DNA from: a virus
IMG/VR virus record: IMGVR_UViG_3300019458_000079
Location: 1 to 26,651 of that record
DNA: 26,651 nt
Strand: one strand, 5' to 3'
Shown here piece by piece: positions 709 to 20,554 of this stretch. A model generated the notes under the pieces. That model was not told the DNA's origin. It did no database searches and worked only from the letters and a program-made list of their open reading frames with translations. The position numbers were made by a program, and so were the translations under genes. The number at the start of each line of letters is the position of its first letter. Within the stretch, counting starts at the first letter, position 1.

Positions 709-1157
709 CGGCGTTGATAACTATCGATTCGAAGGGGCTGGCGGCATTACTGAAGGACCTGGGGGAGAGGATCGAAAAGGGATTCGATTCGAAAAAGGCA
801 GTGGCGGAGTCGGCGCGGCTCGTAGCATCCCTAATAAAGCGGAGGACGAGAGCGGGACTCGATGCGGACCTGAGACCGTTCACCCCGTACAAACGCGGAA
901 AGAAAGGCGGGAGAGTGGACCTCGATGCGAGCGGGGAATTGCGGGACGCGATAGAGGTAAGGGTCGTGAGCGATACCCTGGCAGTGGTCGGCATATTCGA
1001 CCCGGTGCAGCAGAGGAAGGCGATAGTGCATCAGCTGGGCTTGGGCAGGATGCCCGTGCGGAGGTTCTTCGGCGTGAGCAGGTCGGACGTCGATACGCTG
1101 TCAGCCATAGAGAGGATTTTCGTGAAGGAGCTGAATAAGGCCGCAGGGAAGGTGTGA
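705..1157 (+). CDS. Phage virion morphogenesis / tail completion protein (Mu gpG / HK97 gp10-like)
   Basis: The 150-residue protein starts with GTG at 705, which overlaps the upstream stop; a GGGAGG ribosome site lies just before it. The pattern fits the Phage_tail_S / gp10-like tail completion group: an N-terminal helix (GLAALLKDLGERIEKG), a basic stretch (LIKRRTRAGLDADLRPFTPY) in which arguments are hydroxylated rings and basics typical of this family, a DASGELRDAI segment, a conserved histidine in VHQLG, and a C-terminal MPVRRFFGVS motif equal to the family's 'MPARPFLG' signature. Such proteins act at the head-tail joining interface or cap the tail during assembly. It lies between the connector and terminator genes with 4-nt overlaps, so it is translationally coupled to them. 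Confidence 0.72.
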   Translation: MTALITIDSKGLAALLKDLGERIEKGFDSKKAVAESARLVASLIKRRTRAGLDADLRPFTPYKRGKKGGRVDLDASGELRDAIEVRVVSDTLAVVGIFDPVQQRKAIVHQLGLGRMPVRRFFGVSRSDVDTLSAIERIFVKELNKAAGKV

Positions 1158-1630
1158 TGGTAACGAATATAAGAGAGGAAATAGACAAGGCGCTTGCAGA
1201 TAGTCTCATGCTCTCGAGCGTGATACAGCTCGTTACGAGGGAATTCGTCGGGGTCGATCTTGAAACGGGCGCGATCGAAGGGATAAGTTATCTTGAGATG
1301 CCGGCGGTAGTCGTGAATACGGGGAACGAGGCCGGGTTCACGGAGATACCGGGCGGAAAGACCAGGGTGCATTACAGCCCGGAGGTAGTGGGATACGTGT
1401 ACGACGAGGACGAGTATTTCAAGGAGCTCAACAAGCTCGTCGCCGAAACGAAGAAGATGCTCTTCGCCGACAGGAGGGTGATGTCGGGAGGGGAGTGCAT
1501 CGGTGTCATAAACGGCATTACGCAGCTGACCACGGACAGGGGGAGGCTGGCGCCCTACGGGGCGTTCTCCATGACGCTCGATATTTTATACGATTACATG
1601 ACAGTGACGGGAGGGGAACTAATCATATGA
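1157..1630 (+). CDS. Probable tail terminator protein
   Basis: The protein has 157 residues. ATG at 1157 is preferred over GTG at 1154 because the GGAAGG ribosome site (about 1147-1152) is too close to the GTG; the ATG overlaps the preceding TGA by one base. The sequence is an alpha/beta mix with an N-terminal helix (IREEIDKALADSLMLSSVIQ) and later strands, consistent with the small terminator (lambda gpU / DUF3168-like) proteins that cap the growing tail tube. I see no diagnostic motif. The call rests mainly on size, fold character and position after the tail completion gene. In most siphoviruses the tube gene follows at once; here a 6-kb island intervenes. Confidence 0.5.
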   Translation: MVTNIREEIDKALADSLMLSSVIQLVTREFVGVDLETGAIEGISYLEMPAVVVNTGNEAGFTEIPGGKTRVHYSPEVVGYVYDEDEYFKELNKLVAETKKMLFADRRVMSGGECIGVINGITQLTTDRGRLAPYGAFSMTLDILYDYMTVTGGELII

Positions 1631-2037
1631 AAAACATATTCATTTTATGGGCGTTGTTTGTTTTATCGTTAGCCGGAGCCGCGAGGGCGGATTCGGACAG
1701 GATACTTATGGAGCAGAGTACGGCGGCTCTGGGTTCCGACGAAACCTATACGAGCGATACGTTTCTGACGGAGACTTTCAGGTATCTTGCGGTTACGGTA
1801 GTGTCCGACGAGCCGAGCGCCGCAGGCGGCGTGAAGATCGAGCAGTCGTGCGACAACGACTGTGATACGGCGGTGAGTCCGGAGTTCCAGTACGTCTCCG
1901 GGTGGTCGTACACAGCGGGTTCGGCGGATAACCAGTACGTTGCCGAGCTAAACTGCAAGTGCGCGAGAGTCAGATACGTGAACGGCTCTAACGCTCAGGG
2001 GAGTTTTCACATAACTTCTTACCTTAAGCTCGACTGA
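1627..2037 (+). CDS. Small exported virion-type beta-sandwich protein with signal peptide
   Basis: The 136-residue protein starts at ATG 1627, which overlaps the previous stop (ATGA); the same frame is open further upstream but only as a shadow of the terminator gene. It begins with a clear Sec signal peptide (MKNIFILWALFVLSLAGAARA, cleavage after ARA about residue 21, given here in two parts: basic MKN, hydrophobic core, AxA). The mature part (LGSDETYTSDTF, then ARVRYVNGSNAQGSFHI) matches a beta-sandwich pattern common in minor tail and fibre proteins. Four cysteines (CDNDC and CKC) could form disulfides, which fits export. A signal peptide on a tail-module protein is unusual. Function is unknown; surface binding is an inference. 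Confidence 0.6.
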   Translation: MKNIFILWALFVLSLAGAARADSDRILMEQSTAALGSDETYTSDTFLTETFRYLAVTVVSDEPSAAGGVKIEQSCDNDCDTAVSPEFQYVSGWSYTAGSADNQYVAELNCKCARVRYVNGSNAQGSFHITSYLKLD

Positions 2038-2079
2038 TGCCGGTTTTAACGGCGCTTACAAAGAATCCGGAGGGGACAG

Positions 2080-3522
2080 ATGAGATTTGCACTTATATTG
2101 GCGGCACTCCTGTGCGCGCCTGGAATCATTGCGTACGCTGAAATACAGCAGGACGTGGTGGAGAGGGACACGATCGGCGGGACCGGCGGAGGCGGCGGGG
2201 ATCTTTCATCGACGGATATCGACACGTTTTCCGAGCTGGATGCTATAGTTGCGGACGAGGGCCTGGTTAACCTGAACGACACCCAGACCCTTCTGAATAA
2301 GGTAATAGATGGGAATAGCAATACTGTTAAAATACTCCGCCATGCGACCGACTGTACAACTTACACGGGTGCGGTGGACGGGCAGTATTGTTGGGAGCAG
2401 GATACGGACACGCTCTACGTCTGCGAGACTGAGGACGTGTGCGATACGGCTGGGGAATGGGACGCGATAGCAAGCGGAGGGGGCGCTGTTGATTCCGTAT
2501 TTGGAAGGACGGGGACAGTAACAGCCGCGACTTCCGATTATGATGCGAACCAGATAAACAACACTCCTGCAGGAACTTTAGAGGCAACGGATGTGCAGGC
2601 GGCGATTAACGAACTCGACGCGGATAAATTAAGCACCTCAGTGGCAAGCTCGACTTACTTTCCCATCGCCGGAGGATTATTCTCGGGGGATGTAACTTTG
2701 CATCCGCAGAGCCTGACAATAGACGATTCAGGCGACGGGAACCCTGCAACAAACACAGATACTACTATCACGGGAAATGACCTGTACGTTACCTGTTCCG
2801 ACGCGGACGGATGTAATCTGACTCTCTCTGAAGGCGACCCGATTCACAATAGGGAAGTCAGGGTATGGAACATAAGCGCGAATGCGCTCACTCTCGTACA
2901 TTCCAATGGAGTAGCCGAGATGTGCGGGGGAGCTAGTATTGTACTCGCTCAAAAAGAGAGTGCTAATTTTCAATATGTAACCGATGAATGGAATCAGCTT
3001 TGTACTCAAACCTCATGGGCGGATTTATACGGCGTACCTGCGTTTAGAAAGACGCTTATTCAGCTAAGGCCACAGGCGAACGAGCCTCCAGCTTCTGCAT
3101 TCGCAACAATGAATACCCGCAATTCTCACCCTGCGCTCAGGTTCAATGGCAATGTCTGTGCGATATGGTCATTCGTTATGCCGAACACTTACGGCGGGAA
3201 TGGAGTTACTGCCGAGTTATGGGTTGTGTCCACGGAAACTACCAATGATACGGACTGGGACAGTTCATGGGAAAGGTTAGAGACTACTCAAGATATTGAT
3301 GCAGATTCGTTCGCAACGGCGGTTAGCTCGGACAATAACAACAACAATGCGACTTCGGGTATTCCAACTAAGGTAAGCATCGCGTTCACGAATGGCGCAC
3401 AGATGGATAGTTGTGCATCGGGCGAACTGTGCAGATTCAGGGTGTGTAGGGACGATACGGGGGATACTGGCGGGGCTGACACGATAGATTATCTCGGCGG
3501 TGCTTTGAAGGAGACACCATAA
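2080..3522 (+). CDS. Tail-fibre-like protein with signal peptide
   Basis: The 480-residue protein has a strong ribosome site (GGAGGGG, 2069-2075). An N-terminal signal peptide (MRFALILAALLCAPGIIAYA) is followed by a Gly-rich linker (GGTGGGGG) near residue 35. Residues about 140-185 hold the phage fibre motif VDSVFGRTGTVTAATSDYDA followed by VQAAINELDADKLS, which is widespread in tail-fibre shafts. The C-terminal 280 residues are Ser/Thr/Asn-rich and beta-like, with several paired cysteines, and resemble a receptor-binding or head domain of no family I can name. Together with its neighbour it suggests exported fibre-like proteins. The promoter is not visible; it probably belongs to the late operon. 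Confidence 0.62.
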   Translation: MRFALILAALLCAPGIIAYAEIQQDVVERDTIGGTGGGGGDLSSTDIDTFSELDAIVADEGLVNLNDTQTLLNKVIDGNSNTVKILRHATDCTTYTGAVDGQYCWEQDTDTLYVCETEDVCDTAGEWDAIASGGGAVDSVFGRTGTVTAATSDYDANQINNTPAGTLEATDVQAAINELDADKLSTSVASSTYFPIAGGLFSGDVTLHPQSLTIDDSGDGNPATNTDTTITGNDLYVTCSDADGCNLTLSEGDPIHNREVRVWNISANALTLVHSNGVAEMCGGASIVLAQKESANFQYVTDEWNQLCTQTSWADLYGVPAFRKTLIQLRPQANEPPASAFATMNTRNSHPALRFNGNVCAIWSFVMPNTYGGNGVTAELWVVSTETTNDTDWDSSWERLETTQDIDADSFATAVSSDNNNNNATSGIPTKVSIAFTNGAQMDSCASGELCRFRVCRDDTGDTGGADTIDYLGGALKETP

Positions 3523-3536
3523 CGATTAGGAACGCA

Positions 3537-4142
3537 ATGAATATAGATGGAGTGGATTATAGAGGTATGGTTTTTCTGCATCCAATGAAAACTGCCGGTA
3601 CTTCAGTTGGGGTATTCCTTCGTAAATTTATACAACAACGGCATGGAGAGGTTGAAATTGTACACATGCGTCGTCACCAAGTCCCGAAGGAATTTATGTG
3701 GAAAATGGGCTACGACGATAATTGGTTTGATGATATGTATTGTCTCATATTCGTCAGAAATCCATATGAAAGATTAGTTAGTTTTTATCATCATATGAGA
3801 CAAATAGGCGGACATGCCGAAGGTCTTTGCAAGGAAAAGACTTTTCATGAATTTATTTTACATAAAGACTTAAAATATATAGTCACTCCGATGAGTGCTT
3901 ATTCTTACTACAATAAAAATATCACCAACTATGTTGTTAGATATGAAAAATTAGACGACTGTGTGTGCGAATTAATAGAATTATTAGATTTAGGCGAGTA
4001 CGCCAATGAAGTGTGGAATAACTCCGAAAGACTTATGGCTACCGATCATTTGCCTTATGAAGCATATTATACGCCCGAAACTAAAGCTATAGCTTTTAAC
4101 ACGTTTAAAGAAGATTTTATCACATACGGATACGAGGCATAA
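3537..4142 (+). CDS. PAPS-dependent sulfotransferase (Sulfotransfer_2-like)
   Basis: The 201-residue protein resembles cytosolic-type sulfotransferase domains that move sulfate from PAPS to a hydroxyl or amino group of a glycan or small molecule. The 5'-phosphosulfate loop is HPMKTAGTS (residues 15-23). The 3'-phosphate motif is FVRNPYERLVSFY (72-84) with R74 and S82 in the expected places. YEKLD (136-140) and a C-terminal DFITYGYE complete the family pattern. There is no signal peptide, so it should act in the cytoplasm. The gene is visibly richer in A/T at third positions than the phage backbone, as is the lectin gene that follows 3 nt later, which points to joint acquisition. AGGA at 3528-3531 is the ribosome site. 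The substrate is unknown; a host surface glycan or a virion glycan are both possible. Confidence 0.82.
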   Translation: MNIDGVDYRGMVFLHPMKTAGTSVGVFLRKFIQQRHGEVEIVHMRRHQVPKEFMWKMGYDDNWFDDMYCLIFVRNPYERLVSFYHHMRQIGGHAEGLCKEKTFHEFILHKDLKYIVTPMSAYSYYNKNITNYVVRYEKLDDCVCELIELLDLGEYANEVWNNSERLMATDHLPYEAYYTPETKAIAFNTFKEDFITYGYEA

Positions 4143-4145
4143 ATA

Positions 4146-4808
4146 ATGGCTTGGAATTTTGATGGCGGCGATGCTGCTTGGTTGGAAAATGTGGGTGCTG
4201 TGACTCTTCCTGATGGTGATTGGGCTATGGGGGGTCTCATAAAATTTTCAACAAGGGTAGGCACTCTTAGAAGATATATTATAAAAGGTGGAAGTGGTTA
4301 TACTTCATCTTTCTTTGTACGCATAGGAGATGATGGTGGACCTGATGCAGACGATGTAAATATAGCTTTTCTTGATGATGATGGCACGGTTATAAATGCT
4401 TCTTCTACGGGCAACCCATTCGCATCCAATACTTCCTGGACACATTTACTTCTTCAACGCTCAGGAACTACTATAACTGTTTATGTGAATGGTTCATCTG
4501 TTGCAAGTGTTAGTAATGCTAGTTTCGATGCTTTAGCTCCTAATGATTGGATACAATTTGGGAATGAACAATATTTCTCAAATGGGTTTCGCGGCGATTT
4601 AGCGGAATGGGCCAAGTGGGACAGGACTTTATCCAGCGCAGAAATAGCTGGTCTTGTTCAAGGGTACGCTCCTTCATGCTATCCGAATTCTTTGATGTGG
4701 TACGTACCCATGATACGTGATTATAACGAGATTAGAAATGGAATAGAAGTTGATAATGATGGCTCCACAGTGACGGAACATCCTCGAATGATTTACTGTG
4801 GTGACTAA
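4146..4808 (+). CDS. LamG / concanavalin-A-like lectin domain protein
   Basis: The 220-residue protein has residues about 1-170 matching the LamG-like jelly-roll fold: an N-terminal FDGGD strand, the central SWTHLLLQRSGTTITVYVNG segment, then FRGDLAEWAKWDRTLSSAEI, the usual closing strand and helix of this fold. The last 50 residues (PNSLMWYVPMIRD and onward) are an extension with a C-terminal cysteine. There is no signal peptide, unlike four other proteins of the island. Such domains bind carbohydrate and are common in phage tail and fibre proteins. The gene is AT-rich like the sulfotransferase just upstream and overlaps the next start by one base (TAATG), so it is co-transcribed and coupled. 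Confidence 0.75.
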   Translation: MAWNFDGGDAAWLENVGAVTLPDGDWAMGGLIKFSTRVGTLRRYIIKGGSGYTSSFFVRIGDDGGPDADDVNIAFLDDDGTVINASSTGNPFASNTSWTHLLLQRSGTTITVYVNGSSVASVSNASFDALAPNDWIQFGNEQYFSNGFRGDLAEWAKWDRTLSSAEIAGLVQGYAPSCYPNSLMWYVPMIRDYNEIRNGIEVDNDGSTVTEHPRMIYCGD

Positions 4809-6235
4809 TGCTGATTCTTTCGAGATTATCGATTATTATTATTTGCCTGATTATTTTCGGGTTTGCTCTTTTACAATCGATCGAGACGTACGGTGAGCCG
4901 ACTCTATGCACTTTTTGCTGTGAACCGGGGTGTCATGGGGCCAGGGTTTTGGGTTACACACCCCCGACGCCGACTCCCGAACCGACGCCTACTCCCACGC
5001 CTTCACCATCCCCGGAAGCGTTCGCAACGGTAGAGATTGCCTGTACTACTTATAACCTGCCGCCCCGAAGCTCAGCGGATGCAGGGGATTTCGAGGACGC
5101 TGATGTTATAAGGGATTCGTGCAAACTTGTATTAGATTGGTATTATCCGTTGATTGCACAATCATGGTGTCCTTACATCATGGACGGATCGCTGACGGAG
5201 TATTGCGGCCCTTACGACAATTACGGTTTCATGTATTCGACGAGGGACGGGACATTAGGCGGGTATCTGTATGATGACGGCGGGGCGTTTCAGCCCTGCT
5301 CGAACGAGACTGATGTTTGCGGATATATGTTGAAAGACAATGACGCGCTTATTCCCGTTGCTCACGGATTCGGTTTTGACCATGAAAAATTAACAGACAG
5401 GGGCAATCCTGATTTTAATAACTTCTTTATGGATTACTTTGAAGATATGCCCGATACTCCCGCGAGCTTGGCAGCTTACGAAGGTACGAACGTAGACAAA
5501 GACTGGAACCTGAGATTCCTCGACAACTTTCATTCATGGATACTCGAAGCGGGGGGCTGGAGCGATACGCCGATGAATCCGAGAACGAACGCGGATTACA
5601 CTCGGTCTCAAATGGATGCGGATGTATTGGATGCAGCGGAGATACTAAGAGCAAGGGCAGATTTAGTTAACGTCTTTCTCTTTGCAAATATATGGAGTGA
5701 TGTAGAATCAGAATATTTCGACAGGCCGATTTACGCATTGCTTATGGACGAGATTGACTTCGCGCTCTTTGAAGAATGGGCTTACGACTGGCAAGGCCCG
5801 GCAGAGTCCGAAACAATCTGGCTCCGCAGGGTAAATGCCGCTCAGGATATGATAAAGAACCGCAGGGCGGTCCCTATAGTAGACGGCGAGTTTGGGGCTA
5901 GTTATTGGTACTCACTCGCAAGCCTTTTGTTGGTCAAGGAAAACGGTAAGGGCATGATTTGGTTTTGGTACGGTTCATCAAGCTTTCCCTCAAGTGGTGA
6001 TTTGACGAAGATGCTCTCACTCGATTGCGGACAGCCCTCGGGCGTCGATTATCAACTTGTGAGCAGCTCGTATTACCGGAAGGATTGGGATAATTGTATT
6101 ATTCTGGTGAATCCGAAAACAGGCTCGACGGGTTCTATCTCACTCGGCGGGAATTATACGAACCTCGAGACAGGGGCAACGGTTTCAAGTATAACTCTTT
6201 CGGCCAAGACGGGAGCAATTTTGGTAGCACAATGA
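4808..6235 (+). CDS. Secreted glycosidase-like TIM-barrel protein (copy 1)
   Basis: The 475-residue protein starts one base inside the previous stop. A hydrophobic signal sequence (residues 1-29) is followed by a Cys-rich stretch (CTFCCEPGC, 34-42) and a TPTPEPTPTPTPSPSP linker (54-69). The rest looks like a glycoside-hydrolase-type barrel of the GHL15 kind, a tentative assignment. Acidic residues shared with the downstream paralog are D209 (FFMDYF), D317 and E322 (IDFALFE) and E361 (DGEFG). The C-terminal 45 residues (ILVNPKTGS, then LGGNYTNLETG) form a small beta domain typical of such hydrolases. The product is probably exported, perhaps acting on host surface polysaccharide. It could also be a non-catalytic binder. 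The downstream gene overlaps by 4 nt. Confidence 0.6.
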   Translation: MLILSRLSIIIICLIIFGFALLQSIETYGEPTLCTFCCEPGCHGARVLGYTPPTPTPEPTPTPTPSPSPEAFATVEIACTTYNLPPRSSADAGDFEDADVIRDSCKLVLDWYYPLIAQSWCPYIMDGSLTEYCGPYDNYGFMYSTRDGTLGGYLYDDGGAFQPCSNETDVCGYMLKDNDALIPVAHGFGFDHEKLTDRGNPDFNNFFMDYFEDMPDTPASLAAYEGTNVDKDWNLRFLDNFHSWILEAGGWSDTPMNPRTNADYTRSQMDADVLDAAEILRARADLVNVFLFANIWSDVESEYFDRPIYALLMDEIDFALFEEWAYDWQGPAESETIWLRRVNAAQDMIKNRRAVPIVDGEFGASYWYSLASLLLVKENGKGMIWFWYGSSSFPSSGDLTKMLSLDCGQPSGVDYQLVSSSYYRKDWDNCIILVNPKTGSTGSISLGGNYTNLETGATVSSITLSAKTGAILVAQ

Positions 6236-7668
6236 AAAACAGGAACTTTCAGATTACGGTACATGGCTTATGTATGACGGTACTGTTCGTCATGATCCTG
6301 ATGGCGGAGAACTGTCCGAATACCCACGCTGCGACGATTAATCTGAAATGCGGCCAGAAAGTCAGGGATAACAAGAGCGGGAATTACTTTCAGGCCCCGG
6401 CCTGCCCGAAACCCTGCCTGGCCCGGAAAACTTCTGTTGTAGGTCTTGCACCCACTCCGACGCCTATACTCTTGCCTGCCCCTATTCCGGCTCCCGTATC
6501 AGCCCCTGTCCCAAGCCCATCTCCTGCACCTGCTTCGGGGAACACAATAGACTTTGCCTGCACGACTTACTGGAATTACGGGCACAGGGATAGTGCCGGT
6601 ACCGCTGTGATGTCTAAGGTGAACAAGCTTAGAAGTTATTGCGATATGGTGCTTACCTGGTGGGAGTCTACTCCTTCACAAACATGGTGTCCATATATTC
6701 GGCACAATTCAGCGGTCAAATTTTGCGGCCCTTACGACAATTGGGGATATATGAGGACTGATAAGGAGTTGTATAAAAAGCATGGCGTAAAGTGGCAGTT
6801 AAAAACAGATTCCGGCTCGCCTACTTTAAATCAATACATTCCGCTTGAAGGCGCGCTTGATTGGGGTAATCCGGCGTTCGTACATTTCTTCATAGACTAC
6901 TTCAACCAGCCCCCGGCAGGTATTAGCGAGTGGACGGGGACATTCCGGGAACGCTCATGGAACCTGCGAGAGCTGGATAATTTCGTGATACGCACGATCA
7001 ATAACTATGCGTGGAACAACACGCCTGTAAACCCTCGAACCGGTAAGGCTATGACGAACGCGGAACGGGAAGCCGACGTGCTGAGGGCTATGCAGACGAT
7101 GAGGGCGGCTGCCGACGCTCAGGGCTTGAAGTACTTTGCCAACGTGTTCAGCGATCTCAGCACCGATTATTTCTCCCGGCCTGTTTATTCGCAGCTTATG
7201 AATCTCGTCGATTATGCCTTCTTCGAGGTCATGGTAGCGGATATGCAGCACAATAACGTTACGGAATCCGTGTGGCTTACCAGGGTGAAGATCGCGCAGG
7301 CGATAGCGAAGAATAATCGGGCGATCCCCGTTATCACGACCGAGTACGGGGACTTCTGGTATAACGTCGCAACGATGCTGCTCGCGTGCGAGCCGGGGAA
7401 GTGTATGACGTTTCAGCAGCCGATAATGACCGACTCGCAGATCGAGAAGCTTTCGACTCTCGATTTAGGTGCCCCGGTCAGTGATTTCGCCAAAGCGGGC
7501 TGCTATATACGCTCGTGGACCAAAGGCCTCATCGCCGTAAACCCGATGGATTCGGGGAGCTGCCACGTGGCGCTCTCCGGAAGCTACAGGGACCTCGAGA
7601 CCGGAAAGACGGTGAGTGGTACGATTCAGATAAACAACAAGGGCGGGAAGGTGTTGGTGGAGGAGTAG
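6232..7668 (+). CDS. Secreted glycosidase-like TIM-barrel protein (copy 2)
   Basis: The 478-residue paralog of the preceding gene starts at ATG 6232 inside an ATGA overlap; the frame is open earlier but only in shadow of copy 1. Residues 1-34 are a signal sequence with hydrophobic core LCMTVLFVMILMA. A Pro/Ala linker (73-101) precedes the barrel. Shared blocks include WCPYI, CGPYDN, DWGNPAF/RGNPDF, FFIDYF (D222), WNLRELDNF, VDYAFFE (D327, E332), TEYGDFW (E371) and AVNP. The two copies are clearly homologous but well diverged, so the duplication is not recent. Both keep the same candidate acidic residues, which argues for retained activity in both. It ends the accessory island. Confidence 0.6.
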   Translation: MKNRNFQITVHGLCMTVLFVMILMAENCPNTHAATINLKCGQKVRDNKSGNYFQAPACPKPCLARKTSVVGLAPTPTPILLPAPIPAPVSAPVPSPSPAPASGNTIDFACTTYWNYGHRDSAGTAVMSKVNKLRSYCDMVLTWWESTPSQTWCPYIRHNSAVKFCGPYDNWGYMRTDKELYKKHGVKWQLKTDSGSPTLNQYIPLEGALDWGNPAFVHFFIDYFNQPPAGISEWTGTFRERSWNLRELDNFVIRTINNYAWNNTPVNPRTGKAMTNAEREADVLRAMQTMRAAADAQGLKYFANVFSDLSTDYFSRPVYSQLMNLVDYAFFEVMVADMQHNNVTESVWLTRVKIAQAIAKNNRAIPVITTEYGDFWYNVATMLLACEPGKCMTFQQPIMTDSQIEKLSTLDLGAPVSDFAKAGCYIRSWTKGLIAVNPMDSGSCHVALSGSYRDLETGKTVSGTIQINNKGGKVLVEE

Positions 7669-8018
7669 GTAATCCGCCTGATATCAGGAATTGGAGTATA
7701 AGGGTCGCGGCTGGAGGCCGCTCCTACGGACACGATGCAAGATGCATGATACAGGATGCAGGATGCGGGATTAGAGGACTGGATTCCCGATTCTTTCCGG
7801 CTTGTGTTGCTACGTCGCCGGGATAAATAGCCATATTTGCAATCAGCGGAGGGCGACCGGTTCATGCGCTTGCTCAGAACCGTTTTCGGGAATGACAAAT
7901 AGAAGATGAGATCCTGAAACTAGTTCAGGATGACTGAAATAGAAAGGAAGAAAAATAACGCCCGGGGCGGTGAGAGCCGTTCCGGGTTTTTTTATATAAA
8001 AACGGAGGTGTAATAATT
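7669..8018. repeat. Intergenic REP-like repeat cluster upstream of tail tube
   Basis: This 350-nt stretch carries no convincing gene. It holds a palindromic element with stem core GCGGCTGGAGGCCGC at 7705-7729 (second copy at 24935-24959), a run of degenerate GATGCA repeats (about 7734-7769), a copy of a longer dispersed element (7839-7897, also at 24819-24880), and a hairpin ATCCTGAA/TTCAGGAT at 7911-7931 (also at 12461-12482, with a stem-compensated variant at 24899-24919). Elements of this sort are typical of bacterial chromosomes, not of free phages. Confidence 0.7.
7961..7994 (+). terminator. Strong intrinsic terminator before tail tube gene
   Basis: A 10-bp stem, CCCGGGGCGG against CCGTTCCGGG with two G-T pairs, encloses a short TGAGAG loop and is followed at once by a run of seven T. 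It lies 25 nt before the tail tube start, so it either ends transcription of the accessory island or attenuates read-through into the tube gene. No separate promoter is visible between it and the start codon. Confidence 0.85.
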
Positions 8019-9497
8019 ATGGCACAGGCTTCAGGCTCAAGTGCAGAGATTTGGTATAAGATTGAACAGGCGAACGGCGTGACGCCGTCCGTGGACTCGG
8101 GCGCGTCTACAACGCTCGCGTCTGCTGTAAATCCGGGTGCGGCTTCTATCGTGGTCGCGTCGGATTCTGGTATCGCCGCGGGTGATATACTTCGCGTCGG
8201 GAACAGCCAGAACATGGAGTTCGTGAAGGTGGATGCGGGTTACGTGTCGGGGACAACAGTCACACTCGATACGAACACGAAGATCAACTACAGGCACGAG
8301 TCGGGCGAGGACGTGAAGGAAACGGACCCGACCCAGAACTGGTTCAAGCTCGGGAACGTGAGGTCGTTCACGCCGTCGGGCGGAAGGGAGCTCCAGAGGT
8401 CGCAGGCTTTATCGGGCTCTCGCGTGCTCTCCAACTTCCGCGAAGGAAACTACGACGCGGGCGCCGACATGACGGTCGAGCTCGACATCGAGACCGCCGG
8501 GCTCTTTTATCTCCACGCGCTCAATAACGACTATTACAGCGCGGGAGCGACGCAGCCTTCTTCGCCCGTGAGCACTACTCTCGCGAACGCGGCCGACAAG
8601 GGGGATACGCAGATAGAGGTCGCGAGCGCGACTAATATGGACACCGGCGTGTTCCTGCTGATAGGGACCGGCACGGGGGCCGAGATCGTGAAGGTGGGTA
8701 CGTACACGAGCGGCACTACGATAGACCTCGATCCGGACGCGCACCCGTTCGGTTTAAGGAAGTCTCACGCGAACGGCGTAGCGGTGGTCGAGAAGATAAA
8801 ACCCTTCACGCATACGATCTACAGGGGATCGACCATACCCGAGGGGATAAGCATACTTCTCAGGTTTACGGACATCGAGTCGCTCATGCTCATCAGGGGG
8901 AACAAGATATCCAACCTGACGCTGAGCGTCGATCCGAGCGACCTGCCGCAGCTCAATATGAACGTCGTCGGGAAGGCGTTTCAGATACTGTCCGAGAATA
9001 TTTTCGGGACGCCGACCGCGATATCCAACACTCCATACGTGCACTGGGAAGCGGACGTGCAGGTGGACGGCTCTCCCTTGACATCGAACCAGCTCGAGAA
9101 CCTGAGTCTCGTTATCGAGAACACGATACAGGGGAATTTCGTCGTGGGGTCGCCGATAAAGGGCGCGATCACGCCGGGGGAAGGGTCGGTGAGCGGATCG
9201 TTCACGTATCAGTTCGGGAGCCAGCAGTTCTCGGAGAAGACGATCGCCGGGACGGAGACGCAGCTCGATTTCATCTGGACATACATCGGCGACGATAACC
9301 ACCAGGTGACGCTCAGCGTGCCGAAGGCGAAATTCGAGGGGAGTCCGCATCCGGGAGTGGGATCGAAGGACCCGATCACCGATGAGAAGAGTTTTCTCGG
9401 GAGACTGGATACCGGCTCTTCGCCTGAGACGGATATTACGGTGACGGTGAAGAACACTCAGCCGACGGTTGAGTTTATGGTTGAGGCGAGCGCCTAA
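8019..9497 (+). CDS. Major tail tube protein with two inserted beta modules
   Basis: The 492-residue protein has a strong ribosome site (GGAGGTG, 8004-8010). N-terminal residues, the segment NWFKLGNVRSFTPSGGRELQ (about 107-126) and the long beta-rich remainder resemble siphophage tail tube subunits that polymerise around the tape measure. Two modules of about 70 residues (from about 29 and about 183: STTLASAVNPGAASIVVAS and STTLANAADKGDTQIEVAS) are homologous to each other and to the module in the connector at the start of the window. They are likely surface-exposed decorations, which explains the large size compared with a plain tube protein. The high GC and AGG-rich codons match the backbone. 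Confidence 0.72.
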   Translation: MAQASGSSAEIWYKIEQANGVTPSVDSGASTTLASAVNPGAASIVVASDSGIAAGDILRVGNSQNMEFVKVDAGYVSGTTVTLDTNTKINYRHESGEDVKETDPTQNWFKLGNVRSFTPSGGRELQRSQALSGSRVLSNFREGNYDAGADMTVELDIETAGLFYLHALNNDYYSAGATQPSSPVSTTLANAADKGDTQIEVASATNMDTGVFLLIGTGTGAEIVKVGTYTSGTTIDLDPDAHPFGLRKSHANGVAVVEKIKPFTHTIYRGSTIPEGISILLRFTDIESLMLIRGNKISNLTLSVDPSDLPQLNMNVVGKAFQILSENIFGTPTAISNTPYVHWEADVQVDGSPLTSNQLENLSLVIENTIQGNFVVGSPIKGAITPGEGSVSGSFTYQFGSQQFSEKTIAGTETQLDFIWTYIGDDNHQVTLSVPKAKFEGSPHPGVGSKDPITDEKSFLGRLDTGSSPETDITVTVKNTQPTVEFMVEASA

Positions 9498-9981: not shown

Positions 9982-10551
9982 ATGCCTGAAATTAAGAGTC
10001 TTACGAAGAATGTTTCGAATTATGTGACGATATACCCGTACAGGGAGATCGAGGACGAGGACTGGCCCGCGTACCAGGACGAGAAGGGAGAGTGGGTCGG
10101 TTACGACGACGGGTGGCGCGAGGTGGGGTTCAAGTGCCCGTACCCGACCGTTGCCAGGCTTACGCAGATAAGGGACCTGACCCAGGACCTGACTGTCGAG
10201 GACAGGAGCTTCAAGATACTCGGCGGGGACCCGAAGCGGGCGGCCAAGTTCCTCGTGTATAACCTGATACAGGACATAGTGGGCCTGACAGACCAGGGTG
10301 AGAGGGTCCTTTACGACAAGGACACGAAGGAGTGGATCTATAACGAATTCTGCAAGTCCTCGTTCCTGCTTTCCAACTTCAGGTCGAGCTACGAGCTCAT
10401 AGCCGGGAAGGTGACGAAGGAGGAGAAGAAGGAAGAGGAAAATTTTTCGGAAACGTCAGAAAGTACTTCGAGAGGATCTTCGAGGGATGGGAAGTCCGGA
10501 TCAAGGGCGAGAAAAGAAGATACCGCGCTGACGCAATCGGACGCAGGGTAA
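9982..10551 (+). CDS. Tail assembly chaperone, short form (G-like)
   Basis: The 189-residue protein starts 5 nt after AAGGAG. It sits between tail tube and tape measure, the standard place for the tail assembly chaperone that binds the tape measure before tube polymerisation. After residue about 150 the reading changes to a low-complexity Ser/Arg/Glu tail (SETSESTSRGSSRDG), a sign that most of the useful C-terminus lies in another frame. A slippery heptamer at 10440-10446 allows a -1 shift into a long open frame (see next entries). The pattern equals lambda G/GT and its equivalents in most siphophages. The N-terminal domain (PEIKSLTKNVSNYVTIYPYR) has no other motif I can name. Confidence 0.75.
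   Translation: MPEIKSLTKNVSNYVTIYPYREIEDEDWPAYQDEKGEWVGYDDGWREVGFKCPYPTVARLTQIRDLTQDLTVEDRSFKILGGDPKRAAKFLVYNLIQDIVGLTDQGERVLYDKDTKEWIYNEFCKSSFLLSNFRSSYELIAGKVTKEEKKEEENFSETSESTSRGSSRDGKSGSRARKEDTALTQSDAG
10440..10446 (+). other. Programmed -1 frameshift site (A AAT TTT)
   Basis: The heptamer AAATTTT is in the correct phase (GAA AAT TTT) to let both tRNAs slip back one base. Upstream at 10419-10423 there is a GGAGG with further purine-rich sequence, which could pair with 16S rRNA and stimulate the shift. The -1 frame is open from before this point to 10937 without a stop. Confidence 0.85.
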
Positions 10552-11567: not shown

Positions 11568-11639
11568 TAGAAATTTGGGGATGTTTGGGGAGATGAAAGA
11601 GGGGTCAATTGCCGCGCTCTAAATGACAAGGGAAGGTGG

Positions 11640-12047
11640 TCAGGTGAATTCTTTGTAGAGGATGATGGCGACGAGGATGGATGTGAGGGCCAGGAGCACG
11701 TCGCGCAGAGTGAAGCCCCAGAACGTGCGGGCGGGGTCGGTGAGGTCGAGCGGGACCGGAAGGTGGTTCTCTCCGATGATCTCGGCTGCTTTGGGGGTAT
11801 CGAGCGGGATCATGGAGTCGCGGCCGCAGCGGGGGCAGACGCAGAATTTGACTCTGAAGAGCGTAAGCGTGTAGAAGAAGGCGACGGCGAAGACGATAGT
11901 CGCGGGGAGCCAGAGCTCGTTCTCGAAGACGCCGGCGAAGGCGAGGACGAAGGCGATCATCCAGAGGGCAGACTCGGTCTTGACGCTGCCGTGGGAGGAG
12001 GCGTCCTCGTAGCCGATGTAGAGGCAGCCGATGCAGAGTTTCTTCAT
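11640..12047 (-). CDS. Small membrane protein with paired CxxC motifs (cassette A)
   Basis: The 135-residue protein starts at 12047, 17 nt from the divergent tape-measure remnant. It has CIGC (5-8), two hydrophobic segments (about 28-42 and 46-63), CPRC (71-74) followed by MIPLDTPKA, and a third hydrophobic segment (about 115-131). The same plan of CxxC, membrane helices, CxxC and PLDxPEA occurs in two further proteins of this window. The cysteine pairs probably bind zinc at the cytoplasmic face. The gene has the GC-rich composition of the backbone, unlike its two relatives. Its function is unknown. A membrane protein next to the tape measure on the opposite strand could be a superinfection-exclusion moron; this is inference from position only. 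Confidence 0.65.
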   Translation of the reverse strand: MKKLCIGCLYIGYEDASSHGSVKTESALWMIAFVLAFAGVFENELWLPATIVFAVAFFYTLTLFRVKFCVCPRCGRDSMIPLDTPKAAEIIGENHLPVPLDLTDPARTFWGFTLRDVLLALTSILVAIILYKEFT

Positions 12048-12064
12048 TCACATAAGGATAACAG

Positions 12065-12415
12065 ATGGGATTGGTGGGGTTTGATGCGAAGGGGGCGAAG
12101 GAGATAAAAGAAAGACTCGAGAAATTCTTCCAGGGCGATTTACAAGGCCGGTTCCTGTTCGCTATAAGAGACTTCTTCCAGTTCGCATTCGAGCAGTTAG
12201 GCGTGCTGCCGGATGCAGCCAGGAGGTTTCTAGACGCCAAGTTTGAGGAATTCAAGAACGCTGGATCGAGAGAGGCGAGGGCGGCTGTCGGACAAGAACT
12301 GCTCGCGGATATAAACGCATTCGTTGATGCGTTCAATATCGTCTCAGGCAATGTGAACGACGCGATTGGGCAGACGATCGAGAAAGAAGAGTGGGAGTAT
12401 AGGTTGGCGGCGTGA
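12065..12415 (+). pseudogene. Tape measure remnant, cassette A
   Basis: This 116-codon ORF corresponds only to the end of the shared tape-measure domain (from FDAKG to NDAIGQTI) and then the short tail EKEEWEYRLAA. A ribosome site (AAGGA, 12054-12058) precedes the ATG at good spacing, so a short product could still be made. Compared with copies B and C, the N-terminal part and most of the shared domain are missing, apparently by one internal deletion that joined the upstream region to FDAKG. The 5' part resembles copy D (FLFAIRDFF), the 3' part copy C (REARAAVGQELLADINAF). Confidence 0.75.
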
Positions 12416-12827
12416 GGATACCTTATATATATAGAAATACCTCAAAATACAAATGATGAGATCCTGAATCGGGGTTCAGGATGACGGAAAATCAACAAAA
12501 TGTTGAATTTGGCGCTGAAATTTTGCAATTTGCGGAATTGGATAGAGAAATTATTGCAAAATGAAAGATTCAGAGAGATAAAATCTGCAATTTGAGGATT
12601 ATAAAGACTGTTAATCGACAACCTGAAGAATTCTGACAAGGAAAGTTGCAAATTGAAGAATTGGAGTGTGGAGAAGAGGTAAAAATACTCAAAATGAAGA
12701 ATTTTGAGGTTGGATATTGCAATCTGTAGATTTGAAAGGAGCCAAATCAATATAATGAAGAATTCTTAGAGAAAAAAATGTGCGAATTGCAATGCTGGGG
12801 AGCAAAGGACGCAGTTGAATGTGGTTA
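12416..12827. repeat. AT-rich degenerate repeat block 1
   Basis: This 412-nt block between cassettes A and B starts with ATACCTTATATATATAGAAA, then a REP-like hairpin (12461-12482), then about a dozen degenerate units spaced roughly 30 nt apart around cores such as TTGCAATTTGCGGAATTGG and TGCAAAATGAAGAATT. From about 12516 it aligns in order with the end of block 2 (from about 16490). The open frames on the minus strand here are compositional artefacts. Confidence 0.7.
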
Positions 12828-13145
12828 TCAATATTTTTGACAAGCACTAGCAATAGCTTTACTGCTGTCATAATAAATATTAACGCAAATGTCTTTTTGA
12901 GTGTATTTCATGCCCGCCGCAGCTATATCTTCCGCAAGATATTGGGCTTGTGTTTTCGGATTCATGCCTAGGACATCTCTATCAACCTTTACCCAAAGTG
13001 AAAGTGTTGTTTGCCACTCTACATGTTGAATATTGGGCTTTTCTAAGAGCAAGTTAGCAAATTCTTCTTGTTTCTCAGTCGGATTAAACCCACATGACAA
13101 TGAAAGAAATAACATAATGAAAATGAATTGTAACCTTCTAATCAT
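12828..13145 (-). CDS. Small putative lipoprotein (cassette B)
   Basis: The 105-residue protein has basic MIRR, a hydrophobic core (FIFIMLFLSLS) and a cysteine at residue 18, a pattern accepted as a lipoprotein signal although position -3 is Ser rather than Leu. The mature part is polar (PTEKQEEFANLLLEKPNIQH and later VNIYYDSSKA) with two more cysteines. It occupies the slot that holds CxxC membrane proteins in the other cassettes and is divergent from tape measure B (80 nt apart). It is AT-rich. Exclusion lipoproteins that block DNA entry are known (phage T5 Llp; Ltp of TP-J34, which acts on the tape measure), but I see no sequence similarity to them and the role is inferred. Confidence 0.55.
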   Translation of the reverse strand: MIRRLQFIFIMLFLSLSCGFNPTEKQEEFANLLLEKPNIQHVEWQTTLSLWVKVDRDVLGMNPKTQAQYLAEDIAAAGMKYTQKDICVNIYYDSSKAIASACQKY

Positions 13146-13225
13146 AAATAAAATATATGTATCAAATGTAATAAATGCAAGTTGGATAGTTTTTACGTTT
13201 TGCGGCTAGTTTGCTTGGAGGAATG

Positions 13226-16123
13226 ATGGCGGATATTAACAGTCTTGCATTGAAGGTGTCACTCGATATAGAAGGCTTCAAAGAAGCTAATACTGAAGCT
13301 GGTGAATTAGCTACATCATTTTCAAAGCTAGCTGATTCATTGAACCAGTCAGGACAAAAGATAGTAAGCACCTTCAGACAGATTTCAGAACAATTAGAGA
13401 TTCTAAAAAGCGAACTTCAAGGTGCTGAGGAAAAACTGTCTTTATTCGGCATTGAGTTTGATATATCTAAGGATCCAACAGAGTCACTTAAAGCGCTGAG
13501 CGACGCGATTAAAAATTTCAAACAGTCATTAGTATCGGGAAATGAGGATGCAATAAAGTTTATTGCAAAATTAATAGATGGATTCGCTGATTTAATTAAT
13601 TGGATGAATGAAAATATTCCCGGATTAACGCAAGTAATTACTTTAATCACAGGATTGACTTTAGCCTTTCTAGCCGCTGTGCCAGTAGTTGCAGCGATTG
13701 TTGCCGGATTTACACTATTAGCGGGTCTTTTCGGAATTACAGGAACGGCTGTGGCTGGATTTGCTGGTACAGCTATATTGGCTGTTGTAGCTATAGCCGC
13801 AATCTCAGCAGCAGTAATCAGTTTGATCCAGAATTGGGGTGCCCTAGTTTTGGCAGCACAAGTGACGTGGGAGGAGAACATTGTCCCAATCTTAGAGACG
13901 GTTGCGGGTGCCATAGCAGGAGTACTGGGGGGAATTGGAGATATAGCATTAATCATATGGGAAGGGGTAAAAGAAACCACGTCAGCGGCTTGGGAATTTA
14001 TCACGGAAGTAGTATCGAACGCTGTGAGTTTACTGATAAGGATTTTCCAGGGTATCGGAGAGCAGCTATCTCAGACCTGGGAAGTAGTTAAGCAGACTGC
14101 ACTAGCCGCTTGGGAGAGCATAAAGGAGATAGTTGGAAACGCTATAGAATCAATTAAGGGCTTTTTCGGGGCGGTAGTTGAAAGACTTTTCGAAGTATGG
14201 GAATCGGCTAAAGAGACTGCATCAAATGCCTGGGAATTAATAAAGCAGACGGTATCAATCGGAGTTGAGTCGATAAAGGGGCTCTTCAGCGGAATAAGTG
14301 AAAGTCTAACCGGGGTATGGGAAGGAGCAAAAGAAAAGGCATCGGAGGCATGGGAAGGTATAAAAGGAATTGTGTCGGGAGCTGCAGAATCGATAAAGAA
14401 ATTCGGGGAGGATATCAAGAATAGTATTATAAAGGCTTTCACTGACGCGTTCGATAAGGTTAAGGAAATCTTTTCGAACCTGCTCGGTGGATTAAAAGAA
14501 AGTTGGGATAACTTTATCAATAGCCTTCCATCCTTAGATTTTTTCAAGAAAGGGGAACAGCCGACGGTTCCAGAAAATCCTCTGCCTACTCCAAGCCCGG
14601 AATCGGGCGGCGGGCCTTCGGCGTTTCTTAATCAGGACATTATAGATCTGGCCCAAGGGTATAAAAACCTAGGCGATAATATTGATTTTGCGACCGGGAA
14701 GACAAAAGACTTCAACATCGCTGTTTTGACTGAGGATGAGTTGCTCCAAGGTTCAGTTGCAAGTCTAGTATTAAATGGGGGGATGCTAAAGAATAATGGT
14801 ACAGCAGCATCTGATTTAAAAACCAAATATGAGAGAGTAAAAGTAGCAATAAATAATACTTCGGAGTCACTTGATAACGCCGGTATAAGCGCTGAAAACA
14901 CAAGTGAAAAATTCGAGCAGCTTGAGAATACTGGCGGGTTTTTTGAAGGGATAAAGCAGGGGTTCGTAGATTTTGTAGAGAATGTGGAGAGCAACAGCGA
15001 GCTTATGGCTGATTTCTTTGCAAATACGCTCTCGCAGATGAGTCAGAGTTTCAGCGATTTGTTTTTCAACGTACTCACCGGGAGATTCGACGACCTCAAG
15101 GACCTTGCGAAGCAGGCGTTCGAAGCGATACTGAGGGCTTTCCTCGACCTGGTAAGCGCGATTGCGACGAGGCAGATAGTATTGAGCATAGGCGGGTTAT
15201 TCGGAATAGGAAAAAGCGCGCAAGCTGCAGGAGGAGGGGGTAATCCGGTTGACATCGCGCAACAGGGGGCTGGTGTTGTTGGCAGCGGATTTGACTTGTT
15301 CGGCTCAGGAGGGGCATTTTCTACGCTGGGTCAGGGGTTAGGGTTGATAGCCCCGGTAAGTGGGGCGATAACTGCTGCGGAGGCTGTAGGAGCACCGGCG
15401 GGAGTGGGTTCGCTAATTGCTGCGCTCGAACCCGGAACAACCCTTGCTCCCGGATTTCTCGCCACGGCGGGGGCGGCGGTAACTATCGTCGGTGCGGTGC
15501 TTGCTGCTGCTGCACTTGCTTTCACGATAATCGCTCCACTTCTTGAGAAGACGCCAAGATTGGACATAGACTTCGATTCCGTGAAAACAGAGGCTGGGAG
15601 GAGGGCTGCGTTAGTCAGTGAGCTCTTGGACGACGACTTCCTGAAAGACGAAATAATAGATATATCGGTAAAGCGGAAGGCGGGTCTGGGGCTTGGAGGG
15701 GACGAGGGGATAAAGGACATACTCGCGGACGCCATACAGGTCGCGGTGAATAACCTGCTGGATATAATCAACAAGCTGCCGACTGACCTTGCGGACACCC
15801 TGACGGAGGAGCTCCTGAATACACCGCTCGACACGGAGACGGAGGTAGCCGGGGAGAGACTGTTCGAGTTCGATGCAAAAGGCAAGAAGATAGGCGAGAA
15901 ATTCAATCAGCTGATAAACGGGGAGATACAGGCTAAGTTCCTATTCGCGGTGGATGGGTTCCTGCAGACGATGTTCGAATCGCTGGGGGTGCTGCCGGAG
16001 GCCGCGGAGGCGTTCGTAGATGAGCAGTTCGATGCTTTCAAGAATGCAGGATCGAGAGAGGAGCGGGCGCAGATAGGGCAGACGATAGAGAATGAGGAGT
16101 GGGAGTATATGCAGGCTGCGTGA
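13226..16123 (+). CDS. Tape measure paralog B, truncated at C-terminus
   Basis: ATG 13226 is best placed behind GGAGG (13217-13221). The 965-residue protein has a unique N-terminal part of 569 residues: helices, a long hydrophobic region (about 133-240), and four exact 40-residue repeats with paired tryptophans (W245/W256, W285/W296, W325/W336, W365/W376). From G570 (GGFFEGIKQGF) it enters the domain shared with C and D: the tape-measure motif FSDLFFNVLTGRFDDLKDLA, a Gly-rich stretch, then KTPRLDIDFDSVK. It ends in ENEEWEYMQAA where copy D continues for another 500 residues. A 26-residue segment present in C and D is missing just before the end. The first 1.7 kb are AT-rich, the shared part GC-rich. 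Confidence 0.75.
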   Translation: MADINSLALKVSLDIEGFKEANTEAGELATSFSKLADSLNQSGQKIVSTFRQISEQLEILKSELQGAEEKLSLFGIEFDISKDPTESLKALSDAIKNFKQSLVSGNEDAIKFIAKLIDGFADLINWMNENIPGLTQVITLITGLTLAFLAAVPVVAAIVAGFTLLAGLFGITGTAVAGFAGTAILAVVAIAAISAAVISLIQNWGALVLAAQVTWEENIVPILETVAGAIAGVLGGIGDIALIIWEGVKETTSAAWEFITEVVSNAVSLLIRIFQGIGEQLSQTWEVVKQTALAAWESIKEIVGNAIESIKGFFGAVVERLFEVWESAKETASNAWELIKQTVSIGVESIKGLFSGISESLTGVWEGAKEKASEAWEGIKGIVSGAAESIKKFGEDIKNSIIKAFTDAFDKVKEIFSNLLGGLKESWDNFINSLPSLDFFKKGEQPTVPENPLPTPSPESGGGPSAFLNQDIIDLAQGYKNLGDNIDFATGKTKDFNIAVLTEDELLQGSVASLVLNGGMLKNNGTAASDLKTKYERVKVAINNTSESLDNAGISAENTSEKFEQLENTGGFFEGIKQGFVDFVENVESNSELMADFFANTLSQMSQSFSDLFFNVLTGRFDDLKDLAKQAFEAILRAFLDLVSAIATRQIVLSIGGLFGIGKSAQAAGGGGNPVDIAQQGAGVVGSGFDLFGSGGAFSTLGQGLGLIAPVSGAITAAEAVGAPAGVGSLIAALEPGTTLAPGFLATAGAAVTIVGAVLAAAALAFTIIAPLLEKTPRLDIDFDSVKTEAGRRAALVSELLDDDFLKDEIIDISVKRKAGLGLGGDEGIKDILADAIQVAVNNLLDIINKLPTDLADTLTEELLNTPLDTETEVAGERLFEFDAKGKKIGEKFNQLINGEIQAKFLFAVDGFLQTMFESLGVLPEAAEAFVDEQFDAFKNAGSREERAQIGQTIENEEWEYMQAA
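13955..14434 (+). repeat. Four 120-bp coding repeats in tape measure B
   Basis: Residues about 244-403 of the protein form four 40-residue repeats of the form W-E-x-x-K-E-x-x-x-x-A-W-E-x-I-K, with Trp pairs 11 residues apart. Regularly spaced aromatic residues are typical of tape measures, which are thought to contact the inner tube wall at fixed steps. Confidence 0.75.
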
Positions 16124-16762
16124 GGGATACCTTATATATATAGATACCTCAAAATGCAAAGGATGAGATCCTGCAAAATGCGGAATTGAGGGATGGGATT
16201 GTGCAATTTGCGGACTGAAAATTACGCGAGTTAGTAAAATGAAGAAATAAGAGGCAAGAAATCCGCAAAATGTTGAATTTGGTTATTTGAACAATGCAAA
16301 ATGTAAATTAGAGGGGAATCGAATCTGCAAAATGAAGGATTGGTAAGGCGGATATTGCGGATTGCAGAATTGGATATTAGGTGGCTTCAAAAGGTGAATT
16401 CTGCAAAATGAAGAATTATCGTGATGGAATTTTGCAATTTGCAGACTGAAAGTGTGATTTAAACTGCAAAATGAAGAATTTGAGGTGATTGGATTGCGCA
16501 ATTTGCGGAATCGGACGGAGAAAATATTGCAAATTGAAAGATTCTGAGAGGTGAAATCTGCAAATTGTGGATAGTAAAGACTGCTAATCAACAAATTGAA
16601 GAATTCTGGCAAGGAATGTTGCAAATTGAGGAGTTCGGTGTGGAGGAGAAGTAAAAATATGCAAAATGAAGACGGATATTGCAAAATGGAGAACTAAAGA
16701 GCCAAATAATCAACAAAATGAATGATTGTGAGGAAGAAAATTCGCAAATTGCAATGTTGGAA
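16124..16762. repeat. AT-rich degenerate repeat block 2
   Basis: This 639-nt block between cassettes B and C begins with ATACCTTATATATATAGATA, as in block 1, and then holds about twenty degenerate units spaced about 25-35 nt apart. Cores alternate between GCAAAATGAAGAATT and GCAATTTGCGGAATT types, which differ mainly in AAAATG versus AATTTG. The spacers are not conserved. The unit is too degenerate for a CRISPR repeat and no gene is supported here. Confidence 0.75.
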
Positions 16763-17152
16763 TTACGGCTTAGGGGTTTCTAATGAATCCGGATTTGGCT
16801 CATTCTGAGCAGTTTGGCGAGTATTTTCTCCGACTTTTAGATCGTATTTTTTGATTGTATTGATAGCCTCGGGGTCATCGAGAGGTAGCATTTCTTTATT
16901 GCCGCATTTTGGGCAGGTTTTTGTTTCTAGAAAGGATAATAAAATAGCAGTAATACCTATCGATAGGGCAATAAGTGAATATAAAAATGAAGGAAATGAA
17001 AAGTCAGAAGTCCCTGTACCATATGATTCGTGTTGTACAAAGCTAAACAAAAAACCAATTCCGAAGATCAAATTGCCATACGGAATCCATTTATCTAGGA
17101 ATCTTTTATTCGCCTTTCCTAAATAGTGGCATTTAGGGCAAAGTTTACTCAT
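16763..17152 (-). CDS. Small membrane protein with paired CxxC motifs (cassette C)
   Basis: The 129-residue protein has CPKC at 5-8, two hydrophobic segments (about 25-39 and 54-75), CPKC at 80-83, then MLPLDDPEAINTIKKYDLKV and a polar tail ending SLETPKP. The cassette D relative shares both cysteine pairs, the DNPEALNLIIKYDLKLG block and the ending SLETPK. The two cysteine pairs would form a zinc-ribbon-like knuckle joined through the membrane segments. It is AT-rich and divergent from tape measure C. Its function is unknown; the position fits an exclusion or injection-modulating role, which is inference. Confidence 0.68.
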   Translation of the reverse strand: MSKLCPKCHYLGKANKRFLDKWIPYGNLIFGIGFLFSFVQHESYGTGTSDFSFPSFLYSLIALSIGITAILLSFLETKTCPKCGNKEMLPLDDPEAINTIKKYDLKVGENTRQTAQNEPNPDSLETPKP

Positions 17153-17234
17153 AAATAAATTATAAACAGTTTACGAAGTAAAATCCAGTTGTAAGCTGGA
17201 AATGAAAGATTGTCATTGAAACGATTCATGTCAT

Positions 17235-17258
17235 ATGCCACCTAATATAGGATGGCAT
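17235..17258. other. Hairpin in the divergent intergenic region of cassette C
   Basis: ATGCCA and TGGCAT enclose CCT/AGG with an AATAT loop and one bulged base. It lies between the divergent starts, where a regulator could bind, or where a transcript leader could fold. No T-run follows, so it is not a terminator. Confidence 0.35.
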
Positions 17259-17290
17259 TATCTTGACCAATAATTCTAAACAAGGAGAAA

Positions 17291-17350
17291 ATGGTTAACG
17301 ATAAATTTAGATTCGTTAGCTTATCTAAATACAATGCCTATTATAGTTAA
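17291..17350 (+). CDS. 19-residue leader ORF overlapping tape measure C start
   Basis: ATG 17291 follows AAGGAG (17282-17287) and encodes MVNDKFRFVSLSKYNAYYS, stopping at 17350, inside the beginning of tape measure C (ATG 17334) in another frame. Tape measure C has no ribosome site of its own, so its translation may depend on this leader by coupling, or the start of C may have been damaged by a frameshift. Copies B and D have normal ribosome sites and no such leader. Confidence 0.4.
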   Translation: MVNDKFRFVSLSKYNAYYS

Positions 17351-20464: not shown

Positions 20465-20554
20465 ACCAAGATAATAACGTAGAAAGGAACAACAAGCTAG
20501 TATAGAAATCACCTGTTAGCGGTAAAGAAATCGGACTTATATCGAGGGGAAAAA

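Follow-up and report, generated by a model that had tools for sequence, protein, structure and literature searches.

Predicted exported proteins between the tail terminator and tail tube genes of a cluster that looks like a resident, gene-transfer-agent-like prophage of Candidatus Dadabacteria

Siphovirus tail terminator and tail tube genes usually adjoin, and exported proteins are unexpected among virion genes. What, then, are the apparently exported proteins encoded between these two genes in the virus record IMGVR_UViG_3300019458_000079 (26,651 bases, analysed whole and called the window here)? The terminator (1154..1630; Pfam PF23818, E 5e-7; PHROG 3907, E 1e-7) is the left boundary of this island and the tube (8019..9497; PF18906, E 1.5e-21; PHROG 290) its right boundary. 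The first-pass annotation had placed seven genes between them; the island is there, with a count of six (starting at 1627, 2080, 3537, 4146, 4808 and 6232), all on the plus strand like the two boundary genes. The expected adjacency of terminator and tube holds in all four relatives compared, with gaps of 49 bases in PaMx74, 14 in Vid5, 3 in yong3 and 38 in G011, a divergent Dadabacteria contig; the gene adjoining the tube is annotated as tail completion in Vid5 and as hypothetical in yong3, and both were taken as the terminator equivalent. Because the two genes adjoin there, the island is extra material by comparison with all four. The siphophages PaMx74, Vid5 and yong3 resemble the window in their homologous tube and in the order of tube, chaperone-like genes and tape measure, but have no exported island. 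Our best explanation, to which we give a probability of about 0.42, is that the island is an exported module in the tail operon of a resident, gene-transfer-agent-like, phage-derived cluster, acting on envelopes and glycans for particle release and spread.

Sec-type signal starts had been proposed for four of the six products: e1627 (136 residues, 1627..2037), e2080 (480 residues, 2080..3522), e4808 (475 residues, 4808..6235) and e6232 (6232..7668). We scored N-termini with a hydropathy test (not SignalP), using the best 11-residue Kyte-Doolittle mean with a cutoff of 2.5, plus a charged start. All four begin with a net positive charge followed by a hydrophobic core, with best means of 2.75, 2.93, 3.55 and 2.97, respectively; when each protein is shuffled, at most 1 in 1000 permutations scores as high. 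None of 21 core head, tail and packaging proteins reaches the cutoff (highest 1.85), whereas among 31 island proteins, chosen by hand from eight loci in the window and its relatives, 26 do; some relatives' starts were also picked by hand, which favours this result. The proteins below the cutoff are the window sulfotransferase and LamG protein, the e1627 relative of viral contig L003 read from its next start, the product of gene 7660 in viral contig L004 (2.11) and that of gene 34201 in genome G041. Because it recurs in this way in relatives, the signal pattern is more than chance. The four window proteins carry 4, 13, 13 and 13 cysteines (2.7–2.9% of residues, vs 0–1.1% in the window's ten core proteins), so that both the signal starts and the cysteines noted in the first pass are confirmed. 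The island set probably consists of secreted proteins, as predicted from their N-termini. The same N-termini could instead be virion anchors: e4808 has a strong hydrophobic core and no clear A-x-A cleavage site, and because of this it may be an uncleaved anchor. For the set we consider this very improbable, given that most of the proteins combine charge, core and an A-x-A motif, that cysteines are enriched and that a chromosomal relative has a lipoprotein-like start.

Relatives were collected with the tube, e1627, terminator and capsid as queries. Four further viral contigs (L003, L004, L005 and L006) contain the terminator–e1627 junction, other contigs reaching head genes only; together with the window and the genomes G002 and G003 they make seven junction loci. 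The e1627 gene directly follows the terminator in all seven, with a 4-base overlap in six (ATGA in the window, where its start overlaps the terminator stop) and a 2-base gap in G003, and e2080 always comes next. Ratios of nonsynonymous to synonymous substitution rates (dN/dS) are 0.09–0.19 for e1627 and 0.08–0.11 for the N-terminal part of e2080, compared with 0.04–0.16 for the terminator, 0.04–0.22 for the neck and 0.02–0.05 for the capsid gene; pairs with saturated synonymous sites yielded no ratio. The L003 relative of e1627 (L003:4581-4991) has an in-frame TGA at codon 7, within the signal sequence, and was left out of the e1627 dN/dS and structure alignments. The e1627 gene and the N-terminal part of e2080 are under purifying selection in the same range as the neck and terminator genes. 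Because the two genes are conserved, tight behind the terminator and under purifying selection, the term accessory, given to the whole island at first, does not suit them and applies only to the later genes, which vary. The island is integral to the operon and not a stray insertion.

The e2080 protein is modular and, by eye, fibre-like; its N-terminal part is conserved, whereas the modules in its middle and at its C-terminus vary. The product of G041 gene 36404 is related to G003 e2080 (27% identity, E 7e-19), and that of G041 gene 34201 has a C-terminal module in common with L004 e2080. Searched against phages, e1627 gave no match at E up to 10 and L005 e2080 gave none; window e2080 and G003 e2080 each matched two records, over short stretches only.

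The genes that follow this constant pair differ among the five loci that cover the whole terminator–tube interval. In the window they are a sulfotransferase (3537..4142; PF03567, E 1e-7; PHROG 3347, E 9e-10), a LamG/concanavalin-like protein (4146..4808; PF13385, E 1e-13), e4808 and its paralogue e6232. L003 has two LamG proteins and one e4808 relative; L004 an unnamed protein and a beta-helix; L005 a LamG protein and a beta-helix, the latter named by its 24–25% match to that of L004; and G003 a single unnamed exported-type protein with no match in PDB, Pfam or NCBIfam. The e4808 family thus occurs in the window and L003, and the beta-helix family in L004, L005 and G041. The G041 beta-helix is 32–35% identical to those of L004 and L005, whose tubes are 86% identical to the window's, the G041 tube being more distant. 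Because the beta-helix is common to these three despite the L004 and L005 tubes being nearer the window's, the partners appear to be passed from one backbone to another. Signal sequences are present on the LamG relatives of L003 and L005 but not on the window LamG protein, which starts at about the point corresponding to the mature N-terminus of those relatives. The sulfotransferase, which likewise has no signal sequence and directly precedes the signal-less LamG gene in the window (3537-4808), was not found in L003, L004 or L005.

The two e4808-type proteins are 37% identical and have one layout: a signal sequence (or, in e4808, possibly an anchor), a cysteine-rich segment, a proline-rich linker and a large domain of no family. 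Searched alone against viral contigs and phages, e4808 gave no match. The name glycoside hydrolase, suggested by the look of both proteins, was dropped, as Pfam, NCBIfam and PDB gave it no support. In genome G032 a relative is a chromosomal gene with, by eye, a lipoprotein-like start, and a broken copy adjoins glycosyltransferase/Wzy-type genes; these neighbourhoods hint at glycan work for the family.

The strongest rival to our explanation is that the proteins are virion parts (fibres, spikes or lectins) that are exported, folded with disulfides in the periplasm and joined to the particle at lysis, outside the cytoplasm. The conserved N-terminal part of e2080 with its interchangeable distal modules is arranged as in receptor-binding fibres, the beta-helix and LamG partners look like tail-spike components, the genes are part of the tail operon, and the capsid jelly roll of BPP-1 is among the fold matches of the e1627 model (Z 8.2). 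A literature search at listing level returned no precedent for this route, however, and PMC6199706 describes phage variable proteins as having no detectable signal peptides; we regard the virion-part explanation as rather unlikely.

Contigs with the element occur in three metagenome-assembled genomes, two of which bear the title Candidatus Dadabacteria and the third Thermodesulfobacteriota DHS20C13 (G003). NCBI puts Dadabacteria in the phylum Thermodesulfobacteriota, and a class search centred on G003 recovers all three. Among the 57 genomes of the class, the capsid gene is present in 3, the tube in 6 (two of them weak) and e1627 in 2. The G003 element spans ~239.6–272.4 kb of a 326,737-base contig and carries terminase, portal, scaffold, capsid, terminator, tube, tape measure and endolysin genes. 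Among the 20 of its proteins scanned, PHROGs recognised terminases, portal, scaffold, capsid, a sigma-factor-like protein and an endolysin, the endolysin-like gene lying with small adjoining genes at the far end. G003 has head, tail and packaging genes together in one chromosomal cluster, as in gene transfer agents (GTAs). Because terminase, portal, capsid and lysis genes are there, the G003 copy is a whole phage-like cluster, and we rejected a tail-only device for it.

No integrase or replication protein was recognised among the 20 element proteins, some reading frames having been scanned only via their window relatives. None of 18 integrase matches in G003 lies on the element's contig, where PF00589 is missing (serine and transposase types were not searched separately), and the one integrase match on the element's contig in G041 is >340 kb from the element. 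We do not argue vertical descent from the missing integrase alone. These findings bear on a further alternative, an ordinary temperate prophage whose lysogenic-conversion genes give the lysogen exported surface proteins, like Lom of lambda. The partner genes do differ among relatives, and exported products of genes in tail regions are known, Lom being one (PMC12309495); the invariance of e1627 and e2080, their tight position behind the terminator and the lack of a recognised integrase in the G003 element nonetheless make it unlikely. We favour less the related first-pass suggestion that the set decorates the lysogen's surface: the position of the genes inside the tail operon, and their coupling to it, would argue for late expression.

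The G003 element is flanked on the left by an esterase-like gene and on the right by AMP-ligase-like and STAS-like genes, and these flanks recur in G041 (names assigned by eye, apart from that of the esterase family, which comes from a scan of its G032 relative). The STAS-like gene is present in 9 of the 57 class genomes, and in seven of these the element or its remnants lie beside it: complete in G003, partial in G041, as relics in G034, G036 and G037, and as lysis-end genes in G035 and G042. No island genes were seen in the three relics. In G038 the contig is too short, and G043 has a different gene there; G033, found via the left flank only, has no element within its 5-kb contig. The G041 site retains the tube, the tape measure and several signal-bearing genes; neither the capsid nor the terminator gene was found there, and the terminase and distal tail gene are missing by whole-genome search. 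In the G003–G041 clade, vertical inheritance at a conserved site, as expected of a GTA, is observed.

The GC content of the element equals that of its flanks in both G003 and G041. The window has 29 matches to repeats that occur in Dadabacteria chromosomes outside the element, 27 of these wholly in spacers, including the spacer at 7705..7884 just before the tube; the same search on the reversed window gave 0 matches. The window is also near G002 (88% over 2.5 kb). In one Dadabacteria clade the element has very probably resided in the chromosome for a long time, and the cluster looks like a resident, domesticated, GTA-like prophage. It has several of the features given in PMC6209664 as criteria of domestication (phage-like clusters, no replication genes, chromosomal-gene-like selection), but these do not include the decisive one, transfer of host DNA. 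The relics in G034, G036 and G037, the partial copy in G041 and the in-frame TGA in L003 would also suit an ancient prophage decaying without present function; long intact reading frames and dN/dS of 0.02–0.22 across eight genes oppose this, and we give it little credence.

Two observations concern the head genes of the relatives. A small sigma-factor-like protein lies among them (L014:8231-8503; PHROG 3512, E 6e-4) and is a possible regulator; a relative of it is kept in the partial G041 copy. In G001 (L012:2290-4378) the capsid gene is followed by a gene that appears by eye to be nitrilase-like, instead of by tail genes.

The predicted structure of e1627 is a beta-sandwich with a predicted local distance difference test score (pLDDT) of 78, the other four of five models scoring 49–59. 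Its best PDB structural match is the N-terminal domain of XepA, residues 10–142 (Z 14.8, root-mean-square deviation 3.4, 120 residues aligned, 18% identity), the next-best having a Z of 10.9, and the top Foldseek match is likewise XepA (E 7e-4, template modelling score 0.62). Viral models folded like e1627 are mostly unnamed phage proteins. XepA is reported to be exported, to be missing from mature PBSX particles and to be cytotoxic as a full-length protein (PMC6834076). The e1627 protein, if exported as predicted, would resemble XepA of PBSX and YomS of SPbeta in Bacillus subtilis in its beta-sandwich, its export during particle production and its origin in a defective prophage. XepA, however, has two domains and is placed in a lytic cassette, whereas e1627 is modelled after its signal as a single domain of ~115 residues, has a signal sequence and four conserved cysteines, and adjoins the tail terminator. 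An HFTV1 paper considered as a link to XepA was dropped, the one passage in it that names XepA being in its reference list.

The modelled XepA-like fold, together with the cytotoxicity of XepA (PMC6834076), would fit a lysis-helper module in which e1627 acts on the membrane and its partners loosen the outer layers. The G003 element already has the endolysin-like gene and small neighbours at its far end, and the swapped partners would be left unexplained. Clear XepA activity is moreover described only for the full-length two-domain protein, a two-domain pentamer being required for cytotoxicity, as against one domain in e1627. We find a lysis helper improbable.

The exported module of a resident, GTA-like cluster would work as follows. 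Sec export and periplasmic disulfide formation are established processes, and co-expression of late tail genes is the norm; from this background and the observed facts we infer that the island proteins are co-produced late, exported and active on the envelope or matrix. The constant parts e1627 and e2080 would be translated alongside the tail genes in the late phase of particle production, and Sec would carry them and the exchangeable partners (LamG, e4808-type or beta-helix) over the inner membrane, beyond which disulfides can form. Outside the cytoplasm the proteins would most likely bind and open the envelope and glycan matrix of the producer and its neighbours, the partners determining which glycan is met, and particles presumed to carry host DNA would thereby be helped to leave and spread. 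Among the first-pass options, the best fit is action outside the cell combined with membership of a domesticated device, the tail-like-only part of the latter falling away with the head and lysis genes of G003. A bolder form of the proposal, that Candidatus Dadabacteria own a GTA whose tail operon encodes a Sec-exported, swappable, glycan-acting set with a constant pair that prepares the envelope and matrix of producer and recipient so that particles can be released and taken up, is doubtful.

The explanation builds on observed gene order, signal-like N-termini, cysteines, terminator overlap, purifying selection, partner exchange and a site shared within one clade, and several points weigh against it. 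Export, particle role and enzyme activity are predictions from sequences and models. The element is patchy, because only 3 of the 57 class genomes have its capsid gene, and several copies are decayed; the one-site evidence is limited to the G003–G041 clade, the contigs of the closer relatives G001 and G002 being without that flank. Purifying selection on structural genes is usual in true prophages too and is not specific to GTAs, and fibre-like parts with swapped ends are also typical of virion receptor-binding proteins. Only one of the five e1627 models is confident, and XepA was absent from the e1627 profile search of PDB sequences. Because the e4808 family has no match in Pfam, NCBIfam or PDB and the e6232 model failed (pLDDT 40), a glycan-acting role for that family can be proposed from layout and neighbourhood only. 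Between the window and L003, the synonymous divergence of the gene at 9982-10551 is 0.19, vs 0.57–0.95 in the other genes tested, and this low value points to mosaic exchange or recombination between elements.

A close parallel is the GTA of Rhodobacter capsulatus (RcGTA), also a phage-derived chromosomal cluster. Its TspA, made with the particles, is described as a trimeric, loosely attached tailspike with polysaccharide-degrading activity that degrades biofilm, raises transfer and can act off the particle (PMC13420450). The TspA gene lies in a different module of the genome and its product is attached loosely to the baseplate, unlike the island genes, which are placed inside the tail operon and have signal sequences, and whose glycan role is predicted from genes. 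Lom likewise is an exported-type product encoded among tail genes, but it is one outer-membrane barrel, whereas the island is a cysteine-rich set with a constant pair. A parallel with PblA/PblB was also considered.

A constant exported pair tied to the tail terminator is an exception to the expectation for virion genes, and if the cluster is a GTA, these agents would extend to Candidatus Dadabacteria; a literature search judged by titles returned no paper title on Dadabacteria prophages or GTAs. According to the TspA authors, to their knowledge no phage-encoded soluble depolymerase is dedicated to biofilm matrix (PMC13420450), and the island genes are candidates for soluble matrix depolymerases in a phage-derived operon.

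Downstream, the tape-measure region of the window (11605-24526) is repetitive. Frames at 13211, 17334 and 20555 and a C-terminal fragment at 12065 have long similar segments in common, with minus-strand CxxC membrane genes between the frames (11640, 16763 and 20093). Only the last frame (20555) appears full length, and the others may be silent cassettes; similar tape-measure copies occur in L005. Adjoining this array on the minus strand (12828-13145) is a small gene with, by eye, a lipoprotein-like start, and two small signal-bearing minus-strand genes occupy a similar place in G036, a likeness of position only.

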